DNA of 64,000 bases, from the NCBI RefSeq assembly GCF_000973105.1, contig NC_015844.1, positions 806,001 through 870,000 of the forward strand, written 5' to 3'. The notes under the pieces are model-generated. The model saw only the letters and a program-made list of their open reading frames with translations, did no database searches and was not told where the DNA came from. Source of the stretch: Zobellia galactanivorans. GTDB lineage: Bacteria > Bacteroidota > Bacteroidia > Flavobacteriales > Flavobacteriaceae. This document shows, in pieces, positions 15,076-22,519 of the stretch (positions are counted from its first letter, which is position 1; the number at the start of each line of letters is the position of its first letter). A program made the position numbers and the translations under genes.

Positions 15076-15651
15076 ATGAAAAAAGGAGTATTAAGTTTGG
15101 CACTGGCCATGGTATTTGGCGTAGCAATGGCTACAGAGCCGACAGTTGGAGACAAAAAGGAAGTTAAGACCGAATCAAGTACGATTACTTGGAAAGCATA
15201 CAAAGTAACCGGATCACACTATGGTACGGTAAACCTTAAATCAGGTTCATTGATTTTTGATGGTGACAAGCTAACCGGTGGTGAATTTGAGGCCGACATG
15301 ACTTCTTTGGTCGCCCTAGACCTTGAAGGCGAATCAAAAGGAAAATTGGAAGGTCACTTAAAGTCCGAAGATTTCTTTTCTACCGAAAAGCACACCAGCT
15401 CCAAATTGGTCTTTACCAAAGTAAAATCCACTGGTAAAAATGCGTACGAAGTAACCGGAGACCTTACGATTAAAGGTATTACCAAACCCGTTACCTTTGA
15501 TGTATCGGTTTATGGCAGCAAAGCTACCGCTTCAGTAAAAGTAGACCGTACCGCTTATGACATTAAATACGGATCGGGTAGTTTCTTCGAAAATTTAGGA
15601 GACAAGACCATATATGACGAGTTTGACCTTGTTGTTGACCTAGAATTCTAA
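15076..15651 (+). CDS. Secreted YceI-like lipid-binding protein
   Basis: 191 aa. An N-terminal signal peptide (MKKGVLSLALAMVFGVAMAT) precedes a YceI domain (SSTITWKAYKVTGSHYGTVN, then LTIKGITKPVTFDVSVYG). YceI proteins form a lipocalin-like barrel that binds polyisoprenoids in the periplasm; physiological role unclear. A MarR-YceI pair is common in Flavobacteriaceae. A terminator follows 22 bp after the stop. Confidence 0.92.
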   Translation: MKKGVLSLALAMVFGVAMATEPTVGDKKEVKTESSTITWKAYKVTGSHYGTVNLKSGSLIFDGDKLTGGEFEADMTSLVALDLEGESKGKLEGHLKSEDFFSTEKHTSSKLVFTKVKSTGKNAYEVTGDLTIKGITKPVTFDVSVYGSKATASVKVDRTAYDIKYGSGSFFENLGDKTIYDEFDLVVDLEF

Positions 15652-15673
15652 ATTAGCTCAACAATAGCATATT

Positions 15674-15703
15674 AAGCCCTACCTTCGTCATGAAGGCAGG
15701 GCT
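15674..15703 (+). terminator. Intrinsic terminator after the YceI gene
   Basis: aagccct (15674-15680) pairs with agggctt (15697-15703), with an inner ccttc/gaagg stem, followed by a run of T to 15710. It separates the MarR-YceI unit from the trp operon. Confidence 0.9.
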
Positions 15704-15721
15704 TTTTTTTCAAACAATCGG

Positions 15722-15752
15722 TTTGTGGTTTTAAAAATGATTTCTATATTTG
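15722..15752 (+). promoter_or_regulatory. trp operon promoter
   Basis: TTTG at 15722-15725, a 19-bp spacer, then TATATTTG at 15745-15752: a complete Bacteroidota promoter (-33 TTTG, -7 TAnnTTTG). The leader-peptide ATG starts at 15758, five bases after the box, so the transcript would start at or within a few bases of that ATG. Confidence 0.85.
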
Positions 15753-15757
15753 ACCCA

Positions 15758-15814
15758 ATGAACAGAAATAACGTAAATACTTGGTGGTGGAACAACTCTC
15801 GACAGACATCGTGA
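15758..15814 (+). CDS. trpL: trp leader peptide
   Basis: An 18-codon frame encodes MNRNNVNTWWWNNSRQTS and stops with TGA at 15812-15814. Three consecutive Trp codons (tgg at 15782-15790) lie directly upstream of the trp operon and of a terminator hairpin. A run of Trp codons in so short a frame is very improbable by chance and is the hallmark of ribosome-mediated attenuation. No Shine-Dalgarno is visible; the promoter position suggests leaderless or near-leaderless translation. Confidence 0.88.
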   Translation: MNRNNVNTWWWNNSRQTS

Positions 15815-15870
15815 GCTGAGCATCATTGTAGTAAAACTATATAAAGGCTTGTCATCACGACAAGCCTTTT
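15809..15870 (+). promoter_or_regulatory. trp attenuator (terminator and competing antiterminator)
   Basis: Terminator: aaaggcttgtc (15843-15853), loop atcac, gacaagccttt (15859-15869), 11 perfect pairs then a short T run. Competing helix folded by hand: tcgtga (15809-15814, including the leader stop codon) with tcacga (15855-15860), and 15817-15821 with 15847-15851 (two G-U pairs). A ribosome stalled on the Trp codons would leave 15809-15821 free to pair and break the terminator; a ribosome reaching the stop codon would cover it. The fold is inference, the hairpin is seen. Confidence 0.78.
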
Positions 15871-15889
15871 GCATTTGAATACTATCAAA

Positions 15890-17287
15890 ATGAAGTACAA
15901 ATTAAAATCTTATCACAAAAGAATTCTGGCCGATACTATTACCCCGGTAAGTGTCTACCTTAAGATTCGCGATCGTTTCCCGAACAGCATTTTGTTGGAA
16001 AGTAGCGATTACCACGCCACCGACAATAGTTTTTCGTATATCTGTTGCAACCCTATTGCATCGATAAAGGTCGAGAACGAAACCATTGTGGAACGGTTTC
16101 CCGACCAGACTTCGTACGAAACGCAAATCAATGCGAACACCGACGTCGTAAAGGTCATTCACGACTTTAGTAAAAAGTTCGAGGCCGAAGAAAGCGATTT
16201 CAAATTTATCAACAACGGTATCTTCGGCTATATGGCCTATGATGCCGTACGCTACTACGAAGATGTTGAAATCGGTAAAAAAGATGATTCGGTGGCCATA
16301 CCCGACATTTATTATGCGGTATACCAGAATATTATTGCCATAGACCACCATAAGAACGAGGCCTATATTTTTGCCCACTGTTTCAACACCGATGAAAACA
16401 CGGCCGAAATAGCGCACATTTTAAACGTACGCACCTTTGCTTCGTACAATTTTTCCCTCGACGGCGAAGCCACCTCCAATCTACAGGATGAAGAATATCG
16501 GGAGCACGTGAGATTGGCAAAAAAACACTGTCAACGTGGCGATGTTTTTCAACTGGTACTTTCCCGTAGGTTTTCCCAAGGGTTTAAGGGAGATGAATTC
16601 AACGTATACCGTGCACTACGCTCCATCAACCCATCACCCTATCTGTTCTACTTTGATTATGGCGATTTCAAAATCTTCGGAAGCTCTCCGGAAGCACAGC
16701 TCATCGTAAAAGAGGGCAAGGCCGAAATCCACCCGATTGCCGGAACCTTTAAACGCACCGGAAACGATGAACAAGATGCCATTCTGGCCAAGGAACTCAC
16801 CGAAGACGACAAGGAAAACAGCGAGCATGTTATGTTGGTCGACCTGGCCCGTAACGACTTGAGCAGGAACGGCAGCATGGTAGAGGTTACCAACTACAGG
16901 GAGGTACAGTTCTTCTCCCATGTCATTCATTTGGTATCTAAGGTTGTGGGGCAAAAAAAGAAAGATATCCCTACCATGAAAGTGGTGGCCGACACCTTTC
17001 CCGCAGGTACCTTGAGCGGCGCCCCAAAACACATGGCCATGCAACTCATCGAAAAATACGAAAAAACCAGTCGCGGCTACTACGGTGGCGCCATTGGGTT
17101 TATGGACTTTGACGGCAATTTCAACCATGCCATTATGATCCGTACCTTTTTAAGCAAAAACCATCAATTGCATTATCAGGCCGGTGCAGGCCTTGTTGCC
17201 GCATCAGATCCCGAAGACGAACTGCAAGAAACCTATAACAAATTGGGCGCATTGACCAAGGCCTTGAAAATTGCCGAAAGCATATAA
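15890..17287 (+). CDS. trpE: Anthranilate synthase component I
   Basis: 465 aa from ATG 15890 (MKYKLKSYHKRILADTITPV); a TTG 21 bases earlier lies inside the attenuator and is rejected. The N-terminal half holds the feedback motif ILLESSDYHA, where Trp binds in the family. The C-terminal chorismate-binding domain includes FQLVLSRRFSQ, FGSSPEAQLIV, IAGTFKRTG and DLARNDLSR. It makes anthranilate from chorismate with ammonia from TrpG. First structural gene of the operon, 2 bp before trpG. Confidence 0.97.
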   Translation: MKYKLKSYHKRILADTITPVSVYLKIRDRFPNSILLESSDYHATDNSFSYICCNPIASIKVENETIVERFPDQTSYETQINANTDVVKVIHDFSKKFEAEESDFKFINNGIFGYMAYDAVRYYEDVEIGKKDDSVAIPDIYYAVYQNIIAIDHHKNEAYIFAHCFNTDENTAEIAHILNVRTFASYNFSLDGEATSNLQDEEYREHVRLAKKHCQRGDVFQLVLSRRFSQGFKGDEFNVYRALRSINPSPYLFYFDYGDFKIFGSSPEAQLIVKEGKAEIHPIAGTFKRTGNDEQDAILAKELTEDDKENSEHVMLVDLARNDLSRNGSMVEVTNYREVQFFSHVIHLVSKVVGQKKKDIPTMKVVADTFPAGTLSGAPKHMAMQLIEKYEKTSRGYYGGAIGFMDFDGNFNHAIMIRTFLSKNHQLHYQAGAGLVAASDPEDELQETYNKLGALTKALKIAESI

Positions 17288-17289
17288 CG

Positions 17290-17853
17290 ATGAAAAAGAT
17301 TTTAGTAATAGACAACTACGATAGTTTCACCTATAATTTGGTCCATTATTTAGAAGACCTGGATTGTGAGGTAATCGTAAAACGTAACGACCAATTGACC
17401 TTGGATGAAGTCGAGGCCTTTGACAAGATCGTTCTTTCCCCAGGTCCGGGAATACCCGATGAAGCCGGACTCCTAAAGGAAATTATTGCCAAATACGCCC
17501 CTACCAAAAGTATTTTTGGGGTTTGTCTGGGCCAGCAGGCCATAGGCGAGGTCTTTGGCGGTTCCTTGATCAACCTCGACGAAGTGTACCACGGTATCGC
17601 CACCGAAATCACCATCACCAAAGACGATCCCAATTTTGAGGGTTTACCTAAAAAAATAAAAGTAGGCAGGTACCATTCTTGGGTAGTCGACCCGAATTTG
17701 CCCGAAAGCCTTGAAGCCACTTCGGTCGATGAAAACGGACAAATCATGTCGCTACGCCATAAGGTTTACGATGTTTCCGCCGTTCAGTTTCACCCCGAAT
17801 CGGTCTTGACGCCCGAAGGCAAAAAAATTCTCGCCAATTGGCTAGGGAAGTAA
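17290..17853 (+). CDS. trpG: Anthranilate synthase component II (glutamine amidotransferase)
   Basis: 187 aa class I glutamine amidotransferase: ILVIDNYDSFTYNLVHYLED, the oxyanion LSPGPGIPDEAG, nucleophile Cys in FGVCLGQQAIGE, and His-Glu in VQFHPESVLTPEG. It supplies ammonia to TrpE. It starts 2 bp after the trpE stop. It could also serve para-aminobenzoate synthesis, as in other bacteria with one shared subunit. Confidence 0.96.
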   Translation: MKKILVIDNYDSFTYNLVHYLEDLDCEVIVKRNDQLTLDEVEAFDKIVLSPGPGIPDEAGLLKEIIAKYAPTKSIFGVCLGQQAIGEVFGGSLINLDEVYHGIATEITITKDDPNFEGLPKKIKVGRYHSWVVDPNLPESLEATSVDENGQIMSLRHKVYDVSAVQFHPESVLTPEGKKILANWLGK

Positions 17854-17910
17854 ACCGGAACAGCACAGGAATCGATTTAATACGTACCCCATTGTAGTAA
17901 GAACAAGACC

Positions 17911-18906
17911 ATGAAAGACACATTAAACAAGCTCATCAATCACGATATTCTCCCCAAAGAGGAAGCCAAACAGGTATTGGTAAACATAGCCAAAGGCGAA
18001 TACAATACGAGTCAGATCGCCGCATTCTTAACGGTTTATATGATGCGCAGCATTACCATCGAAGAACTCGAAGGTTTCCGCGACGCCCTTTTAGAACTGT
18101 GCTTGGCGGTAGACCTTTCGGAATACGACCCGATCGACCTTTGTGGAACGGGCGGTGACGGAAAAGACACCTTCAATATTTCCACCTTGGCGTCGTTCGT
18201 TACGGCGGGCGCAGGCGTAAACGTAACCAAACATGGCAACTACGGTGTTTCTTCCAAATGCGGGAGCAGCAACGTCATGGAATTCTTAGGGATCAAATTC
18301 AGTAACGAAGCCGACTTCCTAAAAAAATCGATCGATCAAGCAGGTATCTGTGTCCTTCATGCCCCCTTATTTCACCCTGCCATGAAAAACGTAGGCCCGA
18401 TCAGAAAAGAACTGGCCGTAAAGACCTTTTTCAATATGTTGGGCCCCATGGTAAACCCGGCCTTTCCAAAGAATCAAATGGTCGGTGTCTTCAACCTCGA
18501 ACTGGCCCGTATGTACGGCTACCTCTACCAGAATACGGATAAGAAGTTTACCGTACTCCACGCCTTGGACGGCTATGATGAGATTTCGTTGACCGGCAAT
18601 ACCAAAACCATTTCCAACAATTCGGAGAGCATGTTGAAACCCGAAGATTTTGGCGTAGAAAAAATAGAACAGTCGCAAATTGTCGGTGGCGACTCCATCG
18701 AAGATTCGGCCCAGATATTCTTAAATGTACTGCAAGGCCGAGGTACGGAAGCCCAGAACAATGTAGTCTGTGCCAATGCGGGAATTGCCATTGCCACGGT
18801 AAAGAACCTGAGTCCGAAAGAAGGTTTTGAACAAGCCAAGGAATCGTTATTGGCCGGAAAAGGACTAAACGCATTGAAAAAACTGCAAGAATTGAGTAAA
18901 AACTAA
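17911..18906 (+). CDS. trpD: Anthranilate phosphoribosyltransferase
   Basis: 331 aa. Contains the PRPP loop DLCGTGGDGKDTFNIST, HGNYGVSSKCGSSNVMEFLG and PLFHPAMKNVGPIRKELAVK, the signature anthranilate-binding stretch. It attaches phosphoribose to anthranilate. 57 bp after trpG; not fused to it, unlike enteric TrpGD. Confidence 0.97.
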   Translation: MKDTLNKLINHDILPKEEAKQVLVNIAKGEYNTSQIAAFLTVYMMRSITIEELEGFRDALLELCLAVDLSEYDPIDLCGTGGDGKDTFNISTLASFVTAGAGVNVTKHGNYGVSSKCGSSNVMEFLGIKFSNEADFLKKSIDQAGICVLHAPLFHPAMKNVGPIRKELAVKTFFNMLGPMVNPAFPKNQMVGVFNLELARMYGYLYQNTDKKFTVLHALDGYDEISLTGNTKTISNNSESMLKPEDFGVEKIEQSQIVGGDSIEDSAQIFLNVLQGRGTEAQNNVVCANAGIAIATVKNLSPKEGFEQAKESLLAGKGLNALKKLQELSKN

Positions 18907-18931
18907 ACAAGGGCACCAGGGCCCATTGAAG

Positions 18932-19714
18932 ATGAACATTCTAGACAAAATAGTAGTCGACAAACGCAAGGAAACAGACTTAAGAAAGTCGCTTATCCCC
19001 GTTTCCCAATTGGAAAATTCGGTCTTGTTCGCACGTGAAACGGTTTCTTTGGGCAAGGCCCTGCGCAACAGCTCAACCGGTATCATTGCCGAGCACAAGC
19101 GACGTTCGCCCTCAAAATCGGAAATCAACCAAGGCCTGAACGTTCAAGACGTAGCCCGCGGGTACGAAAATGCAGGCGTCTGTGGCATGTCCGTTTTAAC
19201 CGACGGGAAATACTTTGGCGGTTCGTTGGACGATCTGTTATTGGCCCGTGCTTCCGTACGCCTACCCTTATTGCGAAAAGAGTTTATTATAGACGAATAT
19301 CAAATTATAGAGGCCAGGGCCCATGGTGCCGATGTGATCCTTTTGATCGCCGCTATTTTATCGAAGGAGGAAATAAAAACCTTTTCGGAGTTGGCCAAAA
19401 GCCTAGACCTAGATGTACTGTTAGAGGTACACAACGAAGCCGAACTACAGAAAAGCATCATGCCCAGCCTCGACATGCTGGGCGTAAACAATCGAAACCT
19501 AAAGACTTTTGAGGTGAGTCTAGATACTAGCAAATCGCTTTCAAAACTCATTCCGGACGAGTTCGTAAAAGTATCGGAAAGCGGAATCAGCTCAATAGAG
19601 GCCATTAAAAATTTAAAGCCTTACGGGTATCAAGGGTTTTTGATCGGGGAAAATTTTATGAAAACGGACAATCCCGGCGAAAACGCCAAGGAATTTATCA
19701 AACAATTGTCGTAA
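18932..19714 (+). CDS. trpC: Indole-3-glycerol-phosphate synthase
   Basis: 260 aa from ATG 18932 (MNILDKIVVDKRKETDLRKS). (beta/alpha)8 barrel with IIAEHKRRSPSKSEI (catalytic Lys), MSVLTDGKYFGGSLDDL, FIIDEYQI, DVLLEVHNEAEL and LGVNNRNLKTF. It is a separate enzyme, not the TrpC-F fusion of enterics. It lies 25 bp after trpD. Confidence 0.96.
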   Translation: MNILDKIVVDKRKETDLRKSLIPVSQLENSVLFARETVSLGKALRNSSTGIIAEHKRRSPSKSEINQGLNVQDVARGYENAGVCGMSVLTDGKYFGGSLDDLLLARASVRLPLLRKEFIIDEYQIIEARAHGADVILLIAAILSKEEIKTFSELAKSLDLDVLLEVHNEAELQKSIMPSLDMLGVNNRNLKTFEVSLDTSKSLSKLIPDEFVKVSESGISSIEAIKNLKPYGYQGFLIGENFMKTDNPGENAKEFIKQLS

Positions 19715-19729
19715 TTGCGACCCAATGCC

Positions 19730-20419
19730 ATGACTCAAATGGACTATCATTACACGACCAAAAAATCAGGGCCTTCTACCATAGAAAATGCCCCGATCAA
19801 GCTGAAGGTGTGTGGTATGAACAAAAACACGACCGAAATTGCCGGACTAAGACCCGATTATCTCGGCTTTATTTTTTGGGAAAAATCCAAACGACATTTT
19901 ACAGGGCCAATGCCCCCCGTACCCCATACGGTAAGGAAAGTCGGCGTATTTGTCGATGCCAGGATTCAAACCGTTGTCGAACGCATACAAGACCACGACC
20001 TTTTGTTGGTGCAACTGCACGGTTCGGAAACGCCCGAATACTGCGCCGAGCTCAAGCTGAAAGTAAAACACATTGGTATCATCAAAGTGTTTTCCATCAA
20101 AAACGAGTTTGATTTTGGTATATTAAAGCCATATGAAACCGTATGCGATTTCTTTCTTTTCGATACCAAGGGGAAATTGCCCGGGGGAAATGGTTATGCC
20201 TTTGATTGGGAAGTTTTAAAAGACTACCCCTCTACCAAACCTTATTTTTTGAGTGGCGGTATCGGATTGAACGAAGTAGATTCCCTAAAGAAATTCATGA
20301 CCCGGCCGGAAGCAAAGTACTGCCACGCCATAGACGTGAACAGTAAGTTTGAAATAGAACCGGGTTTAAAGGATGTTGAAAAAGTAAAAGAATTTAAAAG
20401 AGTACTTAGTATCGAGTAA
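19730..20419 (+). CDS. trpF: Phosphoribosylanthranilate isomerase
   Basis: 229 aa from ATG 19730; ATG 19739 is possible. The TrpF barrel begins at KLKVCGMNKNTTEIAGLRPD and contains GFIFWEKSKRHF, KVGVFVDA, VQLHGSETPEYC, FLLFDTKGKLPGGNGYAFDW-like text and FLSGGIGLNEVDSL. About 25 extra residues precede the usual MKxKVCGM start, a mild oddity. It isomerises phosphoribosylanthranilate to the ribulose form. It begins 15 bp after trpC. Confidence 0.93.
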   Translation: MTQMDYHYTTKKSGPSTIENAPIKLKVCGMNKNTTEIAGLRPDYLGFIFWEKSKRHFTGPMPPVPHTVRKVGVFVDARIQTVVERIQDHDLLLVQLHGSETPEYCAELKLKVKHIGIIKVFSIKNEFDFGILKPYETVCDFFLFDTKGKLPGGNGYAFDWEVLKDYPSTKPYFLSGGIGLNEVDSLKKFMTRPEAKYCHAIDVNSKFEIEPGLKDVEKVKEFKRVLSIE

Positions 20420-20478
20420 AACGTATGAGACCCTACTTTTTACTTTGTACTACGACTTCATATTAACTACGAATTGTT

Positions 20479-21663
20479 ATGAAAACCTATCAAGCGGACG
20501 AAAAAGGATATTACGGGGAGTTTGGCGGTGCCTATATTCCTGAAATGCTATACCCCAATACCGAGGAACTTCGGCAGAATTATATCCGTATCATGGAAGA
20601 GCCTTCCTTTAAAAAGGAATTTGACCAATTGCTCAAAGATTATATAGGACGCCCTACCCCGCTCTATTTTGCAGATCGGCTTTCAAGAAAATACAACACT
20701 AAAATCTACCTGAAGCGCGAAGATCTTTGCCATACCGGTGCGCACAAGGTCAACAATACCATTGGGCAGATCCTAATGGCCAAAAAATTGGGCAAGAACA
20801 GGATCATTGCCGAAACGGGTGCCGGCCAACATGGGGTGGCTACCGCAACGGTCTGTGCCCTTATGGGCATTGAGTGCATCGTTTACATGGGCGAAATAGA
20901 CATTGCCCGTCAAGCTCCCAACGTGGCCCGTATGAAGATGTTGGGTGCCGAGGTCAGACCTGCGCTTTCGGGCAGTAGAACCTTAAAAGATGCCACCAAC
21001 GAAGCCATTCGCGACTGGATCAACAACCCTGTAGACACCCATTACATTATCGGTAGTGTGGTCGGGCCGCATCCCTACCCCGATATGGTAGCACGGTTTC
21101 AGTCGGTAATCTCGGAAGAGATCAAATGGCAGTTGAAAGAAAAGGAAGGACGGGAAAATCCCGATTACGTAGTGGCCTGTGTGGGCGGGGGAAGTAATGC
21201 GGCGGGAGCCTTCTATCATTACCTAGATATCCCGGAAGTAGGCATCATAGCCGTTGAAGCCGCCGGAAAAGGAATTGACAGTGGCGAAAGTGCAGCCACC
21301 TCGGCCTTGGGAAAAGTGGGAATCATTCACGGTAGTAAAACCTTGTTAATGCAGACCAATGACGGACAAATTACCGAGCCCTACTCCATTTCCGCAGGAT
21401 TGGATTATCCCGGGGTCGGACCCATGCATGCCAATTTATTCGCATCGGGCCGCGGGGAGTTTATTTCCATTACCGATGACGATGCCATGAACGCCGGCTT
21501 GCTCTTGTCTAAAATGGAAGGTATTATCCCGGCTATTGAATCTTCGCATGCACTGGCCATCTTGGAACACCGAAAGTTCAAGCCCGAAGATATCGTAGTG
21601 ATCAACCTATCGGGGCGTGGCGATAAAGACCTCAACAACTACATCGAATATTTTAATCTATAA
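20479..21663 (+). CDS. trpB: Tryptophan synthase beta chain
   Basis: 394 aa, standard TrpB1. [17 protein letters not shown], the PLP lysine in [38 protein letters not shown], the phosphate loop [12 protein letters not shown] and [15 protein letters not shown]. It condenses indole with serine and channels indole from TrpA. 59 bp after trpF. Confidence 0.98.
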
Positions 21664-21754
21664 AATACTTGGGCAAGATCTTACGGACCCTATAAAACGG
21701 CATCCCGAACGAACTTGCCCATCCTATTAAAAAGGAAAAACAGAATTTGAAACT

Positions 21755-22519
21755 ATGGGAAATAGAATCAACAAAAAACTGAAGGAGGAAGGCAAATTGC
21801 TTTCCATCTATTTTACGGCCGGCTATCCCAAACTGGGCGACACCGTAGAAATCATACAGCAATTGGAGAAAAACGGCGTCGATATGATCGAAATAGGCCT
21901 CCCGTTCAGTGATCCCCTGGCCGACGGCCCCACCATTCAACAAAGTTCCACGGCGGCCCTTAAAAACGGCATGACGACCGAAATTCTTTTCGACCAACTG
22001 AAAGATATCCGCCAATCGGTTTCCATTCCGCTTATTATCATGGGCTACTTTAACCCCATGCTTCAATACGGCGTAGAGGCCTTCTGTAAAAAATGCCAGG
22101 AAATTGGTATAGACGGACTCATCATTCCCGATCTGCCGGTAGATGTCTATCATGAAGAATACCAAGAGACCTTTGAAAAATACGGCCTGATCAATGTATT
22201 CTTGATAACCCCACAGACTTCCGAGAAACGCATCCGGTTTATAGATTCGGTTTCGAACGGATTCATTTACATGGTAAGCTCGGCTAGTGTTACCGGGGCA
22301 CAATCGGGTTTCGGCGATGCCCAGCAAGCCTATTTTCAACGCATTGCCGATATGAACCTAAAAAATCCCCAAATCGTAGGTTTCGGCATCAGCAATTCAG
22401 AAACTTTCGAACAGGCTACAAAATCGGCCAAAGGGGCCATTATCGGTTCGGCCTTTATCAAACATTTAAACGGTCATGGCGTGGATGGAATTGACAAGTT
22501 CATCGAAACCATCCGCTAG
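21755..22519 (+). CDS. trpA: Tryptophan synthase alpha chain
   Basis: 254 aa. IYFTAGYPKLGDTVEII, the catalytic Glu/Asp region DMIEIGLPFSDPLADGPTIQ, IMGYFNPMLQYG, IDGLIIPDLPV and the phosphate site GFGISNSETFEQATKSA/GAIIGSAF. It cleaves indole-3-glycerol phosphate to indole. 91 bp after trpB, the last biosynthetic gene of the operon. Confidence 0.98.
   Translation: MGNRINKKLKEEGKLLSIYFTAGYPKLGDTVEIIQQLEKNGVDMIEIGLPFSDPLADGPTIQQSSTAALKNGMTTEILFDQLKDIRQSVSIPLIIMGYFNPMLQYGVEAFCKKCQEIGIDGLIIPDLPVDVYHEEYQETFEKYGLINVFLITPQTSEKRIRFIDSVSNGFIYMVSSASVTGAQSGFGDAQQAYFQRIADMNLKNPQIVGFGISNSETFEQATKSAKGAIIGSAFIKHLNGHGVDGIDKFIETIR

Follow-up and report, generated by a model that had tools for sequence, protein, structure and literature searches.

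In the trp attenuator of E. coli, the antiterminator uses the 5' arm of the terminator. In the phylum Bacteroidota, translation is initiated largely without Shine-Dalgarno sequences. For these bacteria an RNA element, RF01692 (Bacteroid-trp), was tabulated as a cis-regulatory RNA of Bacteroidetes in 2010 (Weinberg et al., PMC2864571), a 2019 paper named it at the trp operon of Flavobacterium psychrophilum, and leader-peptide attenuation was proposed in 2021, with strong clues, for amino-acid operons of the latter species (PMC9723704). RF01692 is listed as a structured trp-operon RNA, and its model stops short of the switch.

The locus described here lies in a 64,000-nucleotide stretch of Zobellia galactanivorans DNA, hereafter the window, and its features are on the forward strand. 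A match to RF01692 at 15738-15853 (57.5 bits against a gathering score of 49, E = 0.00023, model positions 1-131) is the sole one in the genome, and the suggestion of the initial annotation that the architecture was novel in this lineage is therefore not supported: the element belongs to a family on record since 2010, and the attenuator architecture as such is not new here. The element adjoins trp genes downstream and has a Trp-codon leader in a member of the Bacteroidota, the context expected of RF01692. Other Rfam matches at 15500-16100 (cyano_het_sRNA, PyrR, OrzO-P and others) were ruled out, all being below their gathering scores, and the Proteobacterial Trp leader family was absent from the 17 matches up to E = 10 in the same interval. 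Downstream, trpE (15890-17287), encoding anthranilate synthase component I, has TIGR00564 as its best family at 440.2 bits, below the cut-off of 517.7, and trpG, trpD, trpC, trpF, trpB and trpA follow in this order at 17290-22519 according to NCBIfam matches, with putative start codons; the curated NCBIfam cut-off was exceeded for trpG, trpD, trpC, trpB and trpA, and trpF fell below it. The closest named relatives of this TrpE come from Pseudozobellia and Zobellia (93-95% identity). We regard the element as very probably a ribosome-mediated transcription attenuator of the trpEGDCFBA operon and a member of RF01692, a reading that draws on sequence comparison and modelled folding; the stalling, the stretches covered by the ribosome, the termination event and the precise 5' end are inferred from these.

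At E <= 0.001, RF01692 was found in 230 of 299 genomes of the window's family (202 of these above the cut-off), in 9/9 genomes of the genus, in 62 of 118 and 29 of 101 genomes in two other families, and in 20 of 296 genomes drawn from the class, 11 of the 20 coming from the window's own family. The search of the 299 family genomes overlooked real members, and its stricter filters may explain part of this: among the 20 genomes listed of the 69 without a match, which were examined for TrpE and a leader, 15 carry TrpE (49-84% identity), and a leader containing two or three Trp codons, together with a terminator, is present in 14 of the 15. A model of RF01692 extended to the terminator should recover more members. 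As the match in the window ends halfway through the terminator (15853), the model lacks both the antiterminator and the part that closes the terminator, and for this reason the switch was tested afresh.

The comparison used 149 candidate leaders, comprising the window, 80 relatives from its family and 68 further loci; the 80 were chosen from the 230 family matches to RF01692 as the better-scoring among the matches listed, with the aim of one per genus. Alignment A1, made by sequence alone, holds 142 leaders. L155 was left out for having no Trp pair at the expected place in the stretch examined, L123, L160 and L169 because the hairpin rule of the script found none (in L123 and L169, inspection by eye does show repeats resembling a hairpin), and L129, L131 and L132 for their other geometry. 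The gapless test, the truncated folds and the spacing measurements used 159 leaders, namely 145 plus 14 found via TrpE. A further set came from the closest relatives of TrpE, where the best 80 of at least 581 loci yielded 73 unique leaders once 5 without a Trp pair in the region covered and 2 duplicates had been set aside.

The leader peptide ORF occupies 15758-15814, with an ATG at 15758-15760 followed by MNRNNVNTWWWNNSRQTS and a TGA at 15812-15814; the 18-codon frame with Trp-Trp-Trp that had been reported from the bare sequence is thus borne out, the three Trp codons standing in a row at 15782-15790. Start, stop and Trp codons are conserved over relatives. On checking, the Trp codons proved to be kept, with three consecutive ones in 81/81 leaders (the window and 80 RF01692 matches of its family) and at least two in a row in 67 of 68 more distant loci. 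The RF01692 model itself contains the Trp codons, so that leader sets found with it are selected for them; sets found via TrpE are less biased in this respect, and at least two consecutive Trp codons occur in 14 of the 15 family genomes that carry TrpE without an RF01692 match and in 75 of 80 close relatives (the best 80 of at least 581 loci). A putatively translated leader ORF bearing codons for the regulated amino acid is what would be expected of a ribosome-mediated attenuator.

Upstream of this ORF we predict a promoter composed of a -33 TTTG element at 15722-15725 and, 19 nt further on, a -7 box TATATTTG at 15745-15752, which together match TTTG-N19-TAnnTTTG exactly. The box has 6/6 letters of the consensus TAnnTTTG, and all six are present in 86 of 87 Flavobacteriia leaders compared with 7.4% of shuffled upstreams; the whole pattern on its own is not rare in the window (4 found versus 2.2 expected). 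Since the corresponding box lies at -12 to -5 in F. psychrophilum (PMC9723704), the transcription start is predicted from the box spacing at 15757, 1 nt ahead of the leader AUG. An in-frame ATG at 15737 was considered as the start of a 25-residue leader and dropped, being upstream of the conserved -7 box; as the box stands between it and the leader ATG, it is unlikely to be transcribed. A strong hairpin followed by eight T (AAGCCCTACCTTCGTCATGAAGGCAGGGCTTTTTTTT, seen by eye) is found at 15674-15710, after the upstream YceI-family gene, and trp transcription therefore probably begins afresh at the promoter at 15722-15752.

These positions suggest that the leader ORF starts at or within one base of the predicted RNA end. 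It is conceivable, though in our judgement unlikely, that the ORF is instead translated from a normal 5' UTR that starts further upstream, given that the 5' end is predicted from the promoter box only, that just 5.5% of F. psychrophilum mRNAs are leaderless (PMC9723704), and that the predicted UTR is at least 4 nt long in 65 of the 87 Flavobacteriia leaders sampled. However, among the 73 unique leaders of the closest relatives (from the best 80 of at least 581 TrpE loci), the box spacing places the predicted 5' end 0-3 nt from the leader AUG in 68, and all six box letters are present in 72. In the 87 Flavobacteriia leaders, the predicted UTR measures 0-3 nt in 22 and 10-18 nt in 53; in Bacteroides thetaiotaomicron, UTRs shorter than 10 nt amount to about 3.7%. 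The near-leaderless leader that we predict for one clade may be new, and a leader without room for a ribosome-binding site would show how transcription-translation coupling holds.

Ahead of trpE, an intrinsic terminator hairpin at 15843-15869 is formed by AAAGGCUUGUC-AUCAC-GACAAGCCUUU, with the 11 bp that the initial annotation had given it and a 5-nt loop. Across the 142 aligned leaders its pairs form in 99.6% of cells, compensatory changes have altered both sides of 10 among its 13 pairs, and none of the shuffles reached the observed value on any of the five measures. The U-run is weak, consisting of UUUU and then GCAUUU, or 5 T in 8 nt, where the median for the 95 Flavobacteriia leaders measured, out of 101, is 7, and a weak or short U-run is seen across the window's genus; a simple terminator scanner called none on the + strand. 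This short U-run, and the start of trpE 21 nt past the hairpin, would suit a leader that acts on trpE translation or RNA stability and not on transcription termination. We consider such a role very improbable in view of the median U-run just given, the conservation of the hairpin with both-side changes, and the folds, computed as far as 15876, in which the leader was not seen to pair with the region where trpE starts. An intrinsic terminator before the structural gene, as in an attenuator, is thus the reading that the comparison favours.

RNAalifold returned the terminator only from alignment A1; the antiterminator, being incompatible with the terminator, had to be named by hand. The competing helix envisaged in the initial annotation, 15809-15814 with 15855-15860, is a perfect 6-bp pairing of UCGUGA with UCACGA. 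The first of these strands contains the stop codon in this species, and the second takes four of its bases from the terminator loop and two from the 3' arm. A further helix, proposed at 15817-15821 with 15847-15851, does pair but includes two G-U pairs, and the folding program instead joins 15818-15821 to 15847-15850, which belong to the 5' arm of the terminator. The predicted fold caps the antiterminator with a small A+U-rich hairpin (15827-15841), and GUAUAU/AUAUAC arms resembling it can be seen by eye in many relatives. The 4 nt ahead of GA[C/U] read UCAC in 92 of 101 Flavobacteriia leaders. Of 73 unique close relatives from the best 80 of at least 581 TrpE loci, 63 have exact UCGUGA (10 are without it, e.g. 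ACGUGA) and 69 the expected loop pattern (4 without).

The core was tested as columns 13-20 against 126-133, corresponding to window positions 15808-15815 and 15854-15861 (the window itself forms the six inner pairs); each of five measures was set against 500 shuffles over the 142 leaders. Core pairs form in 90.0% of cells compared with 85.7 +/- 0.4 in shuffles, there are 93 double-change cells compared with 22.9, and the covariation score is 0.279 compared with 0.194, 0/500 shuffles being as high in any of the three cases; slid registers pair in 23.5-55.7% of cells. Compensatory change, looked for here as in the terminator, has support in that 3 of 8 core pairs have changed on both sides, but this count (2.2 in shuffles, 171/500 as high) and that of further pair types (11 against 11.1, 358/500 as high) are not above shuffles, and the tool's notes describe these two measures as the least inflated by relatedness. 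Moreover, many of the double changes separate two large lineages, so that the shuffles overstate independence. The pair at columns 18/128, which in many leaders involves the middle base of the stop codon (UGA/UAA) changing together with the terminator loop, is G-C in 89, A-U in 45, G-U in 6 and unpaired in 2 of the 142 leaders. As it is G-C in 86 of 87 Flavobacteriia, and A-U in 45, G-U in 6 and G-C in 3 of the 55 leaders of the other group, it largely divides the two, and one old change may explain most of it. The end pairs of the core are weak (83/142 and 101/142 paired), and neither forms in the window.

Within Flavobacteriia, duplex energies for own and swapped partners are almost equal (-13.66 versus -13.58), because the element is nearly constant there; within the other group they are -18.62 and -17.27, and between the groups -13.66 versus -10.46 and -18.62 versus -14.59. 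In the gapless test of 159 leaders, the mean score is 15.9 with the own terminator, 13.1 with other terminators and 10.1 for shuffled elements, and 119 leaders beat at least 95% of their own shuffles. With the window's element, an equally high score is reached by 44% of other terminators, UCACGA being common to them.

Because the pair and pair-type counts of the core do not exceed those of shuffles, much weight falls on divergent leaders in which the core helix has been rebuilt: as UCGCGA:UCGCGA in L207, GGAUUCAG:CUGAAUCC in L209, UGCGAUGAU:GUCAUCGCG in L206 and UUGUGAAG:CUUCACGA in L200, elements that just 0-7% of other terminators fit equally well. Found in leaders that RF01692 overlooked, these helices are, as far as sequences can argue for a predicted antiterminator, stronger evidence for it than the alignment counts. 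The same gapless test gave no convincing core pairing in L202 and weak pairing only in L130, L174, L208 and L210. In L129, L131, L132 and L161 the pairing is mainly to the 5' arm of the terminator. For the first three, which have two or three Trp codons, the best pairing is with that arm and reads GAACAGCG:UGCUGUUC (L129, family f17) or GGCAGCCU:GGGUUGCC (L131 and L132, family f39), so that two designs may coexist in the class; the gapless test of 159 leaders, with its narrower terminator window, supported the 5'-arm pairing of L129, and not that of L131 and L132.

In 136 of 145 leaders the core finds its best gapless partner in the terminator loop together with bases of the 3' arm, which would in principle leave about 8 bp of the terminator stem intact. 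The pairing might accordingly be a pseudoknot between loop and upstream sequence, present alongside the outer terminator stem and modulating termination, a type of structure that the energy program used cannot score. To us this seems decidedly unlikely, as at least three further pairs to the terminator 5' arm, incompatible with the terminator, form in 158 of 159 leaders in the truncated folds, a count that has no shuffled control. We therefore favour an antiterminator that would exclude the terminator and, on the predicted folds, be freed by a stalled ribosome, as the definition of an attenuator asks. The comparative support for this antiterminator may be new, and so may the way it engages the loop and 3' arm of the terminator: for Bacteroidota, a comparable antiterminator was not found in the open-licence literature searched, supplements aside (including PMC2864571, PMC6414381, PMC4833913, PMC9723704, PMC7366714, PMC7298713 and PMC1262725).

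The position of the core follows the Trp codons closely. A core was recognised in 152 of the 159 leaders examined, and in 149 of these it starts 17-22 nt downstream of the final Trp codon, at 18 nt in the case of UCGUGA in the window; this nearly fixed distance may be new. In 101 Flavobacteriia leaders the distance from that codon to the stop ranges between 6 and 27 nt. It had been remarked of the window that the upstream arm includes the stop codon, which is true here but not the rule, the core overlapping the stop in 100 of the 152 leaders, following it in 23 and lying inside the ORF in 29. A leader of the window's own genus (L082) has its stop moved to 9 nt past the Trp codons, with the core unchanged. 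In the genome concerned (L082/L189), a single base change, CGA->TGA, trims the leader to MNRNNVNTWWWNNS and leaves the antiterminator core intact, a natural hint that the core may matter as an RNA element beyond the mere stop codon. In six leaders of other families (L119, L144, L156, L163, L167 and L180) the ORF runs through the core, and the stop comes 48-57 nt past the Trp codons; a ribosome at such a stop would miss the core, and for these the simple model falls short.

Folding of the RNA in steps gives an order of events. The minimum-energy fold of 15757-15842 (-15.2 kcal/mol) contains a hairpin at 15778-15833 (15778-15789 with 15821-15833) that is predicted to protect the Trp codons when no ribosome is present; it resembles the RF01692 structure, which likewise pairs the Trp-codon region with bases just past the leader stop. 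A ribosome at the Trp codons was simulated on the assumption that the RNA is free from 15801. As the transcript of the window grows in silico, the antiterminator core is favoured from 15858, is complete from 15860 and persists to 15865, and from 15866 the terminator is favoured. The complete terminator is more stable than the antiterminator (-20.5 versus -15.6 kcal/mol), so that the outcome rests on timing, as is normal for attenuators. When the transcript is cut so that 3 nt of the 3' arm have emerged, energy minimisation yields the antiterminator for 153 of 159 leaders, including 101/101 Flavobacteriia, compared with 83 of 477 with shuffled linkers; it is not the best fold in the remaining six (L148, L161, L162, L163, L166 and L171).

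Based on these observations, we propose the following model. Transcription would begin at about 15757, placing the leader AUG at or beside the 5' end. When charged tRNA-Trp is short, a ribosome would stall at the three Trp codons and open the protector hairpin, with the core UCGUGA staying uncovered. This would let the core and the bases following it bind UCACGA of the loop and 3' arm as well as GCUU in the 5' arm of the terminator, and with the antiterminator formed trpE would be transcribed. When Trp is plentiful, the ribosome would reach the stop and cover the core, and the terminator would form; without translation, the protector hairpin would hold the core and the terminator would likewise form. 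The central idea of the initial annotation, that a stalled ribosome frees the upstream arm and a finished one hides it, has gained comparative support, tempered by the two of five core measures that are not above shuffles. Taking all of this together, we suggest tentatively, and with slightly less than even confidence, that the Bacteroidota possess a distinct design in which a short RNA word, set at a fixed distance of some 18-21 nt downstream of the Trp codons and little affected by where the stop lies, grips the terminator loop and 3' arm, with the decision made as the loop leaves the polymerase, and in which ribosomes of the Zobellia-Maribacter clade load on a leaderless mRNA without any ribosome-binding site.

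Leaders of a similar kind may serve other operons of the same genome. Upstream of hisG (G000:C1, L187; on the reverse strand, from near 1190 in reverse-complement numbering) there is a leader ORF MKNRNTHHHFYTGSQAR with three His codons, followed by a hairpin AAAACCCG...CGGGTTTT before the gene, where visual inspection suggests a pairing of CAGGCGAGGU with ACCCGUUUG in the 5' arm of the terminator. Upstream of a PDT/pheA-type gene (G000:C1, L188; on the reverse strand, from near 1300 in reverse-complement numbering) the leader ORF MTKRFFFNGFYFYFFFERGTGLL is Phe/Tyr-rich and is followed by a hairpin AAGTCCCGT...ACGGGACTT, with ACGGGACU pairing, again by eye, with AGUCCCGU of the terminator 5' arm. 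A hisG 5' element has been named in relatives, and the pheA and hisG 5' elements of F. psychrophilum likely have these as counterparts in the window's genome (PMC9723704).

The attenuators of F. psychrophilum share with the window the bacterial family and the proposed mechanism; the main text of that report, its supplement aside, gives no antiterminator, and no mention of trp was found in it (PMC9723704). RF01692 shares with the window its sequence and structure, its place upstream of trp, its Trp-codon leader and its occurrence in Bacteroidota, but its model ends at 15853, without the closing of the terminator or an antiterminator, as judged apart from the supplement of the paper (Weinberg et al., 2010, PMC2864571). 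Further afield, the trpL leader transcript of the alphaproteobacterium Sinorhizobium meliloti begins with the AUG of its leader ORF, as predicted for the window, a likeness drawn from the transcript start, antiterminators aside (PMC7298713). The trp attenuators of Corynebacterium and Streptomyces resemble that of the window in their two or three Trp codons and in that comparison revealed their terminator and antiterminator, but differ in being GC-rich and in having their own conserved triple, gGCC-rGCy-GGCC (PMC1262725).

An antiterminator with comparative support is open to direct test by paired mutation. Enteric-type geometry has the antiterminator on the 5' arm only, which is not what these leaders have: theirs engages the loop and 3' arm in the large majority, with extra pairs to the 5' arm. 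The attenuator of the window thus has the same order of Trp codons, protector, antiterminator and terminator as that of E. coli, but its predicted antiterminator additionally uses the terminator loop and 3' arm.
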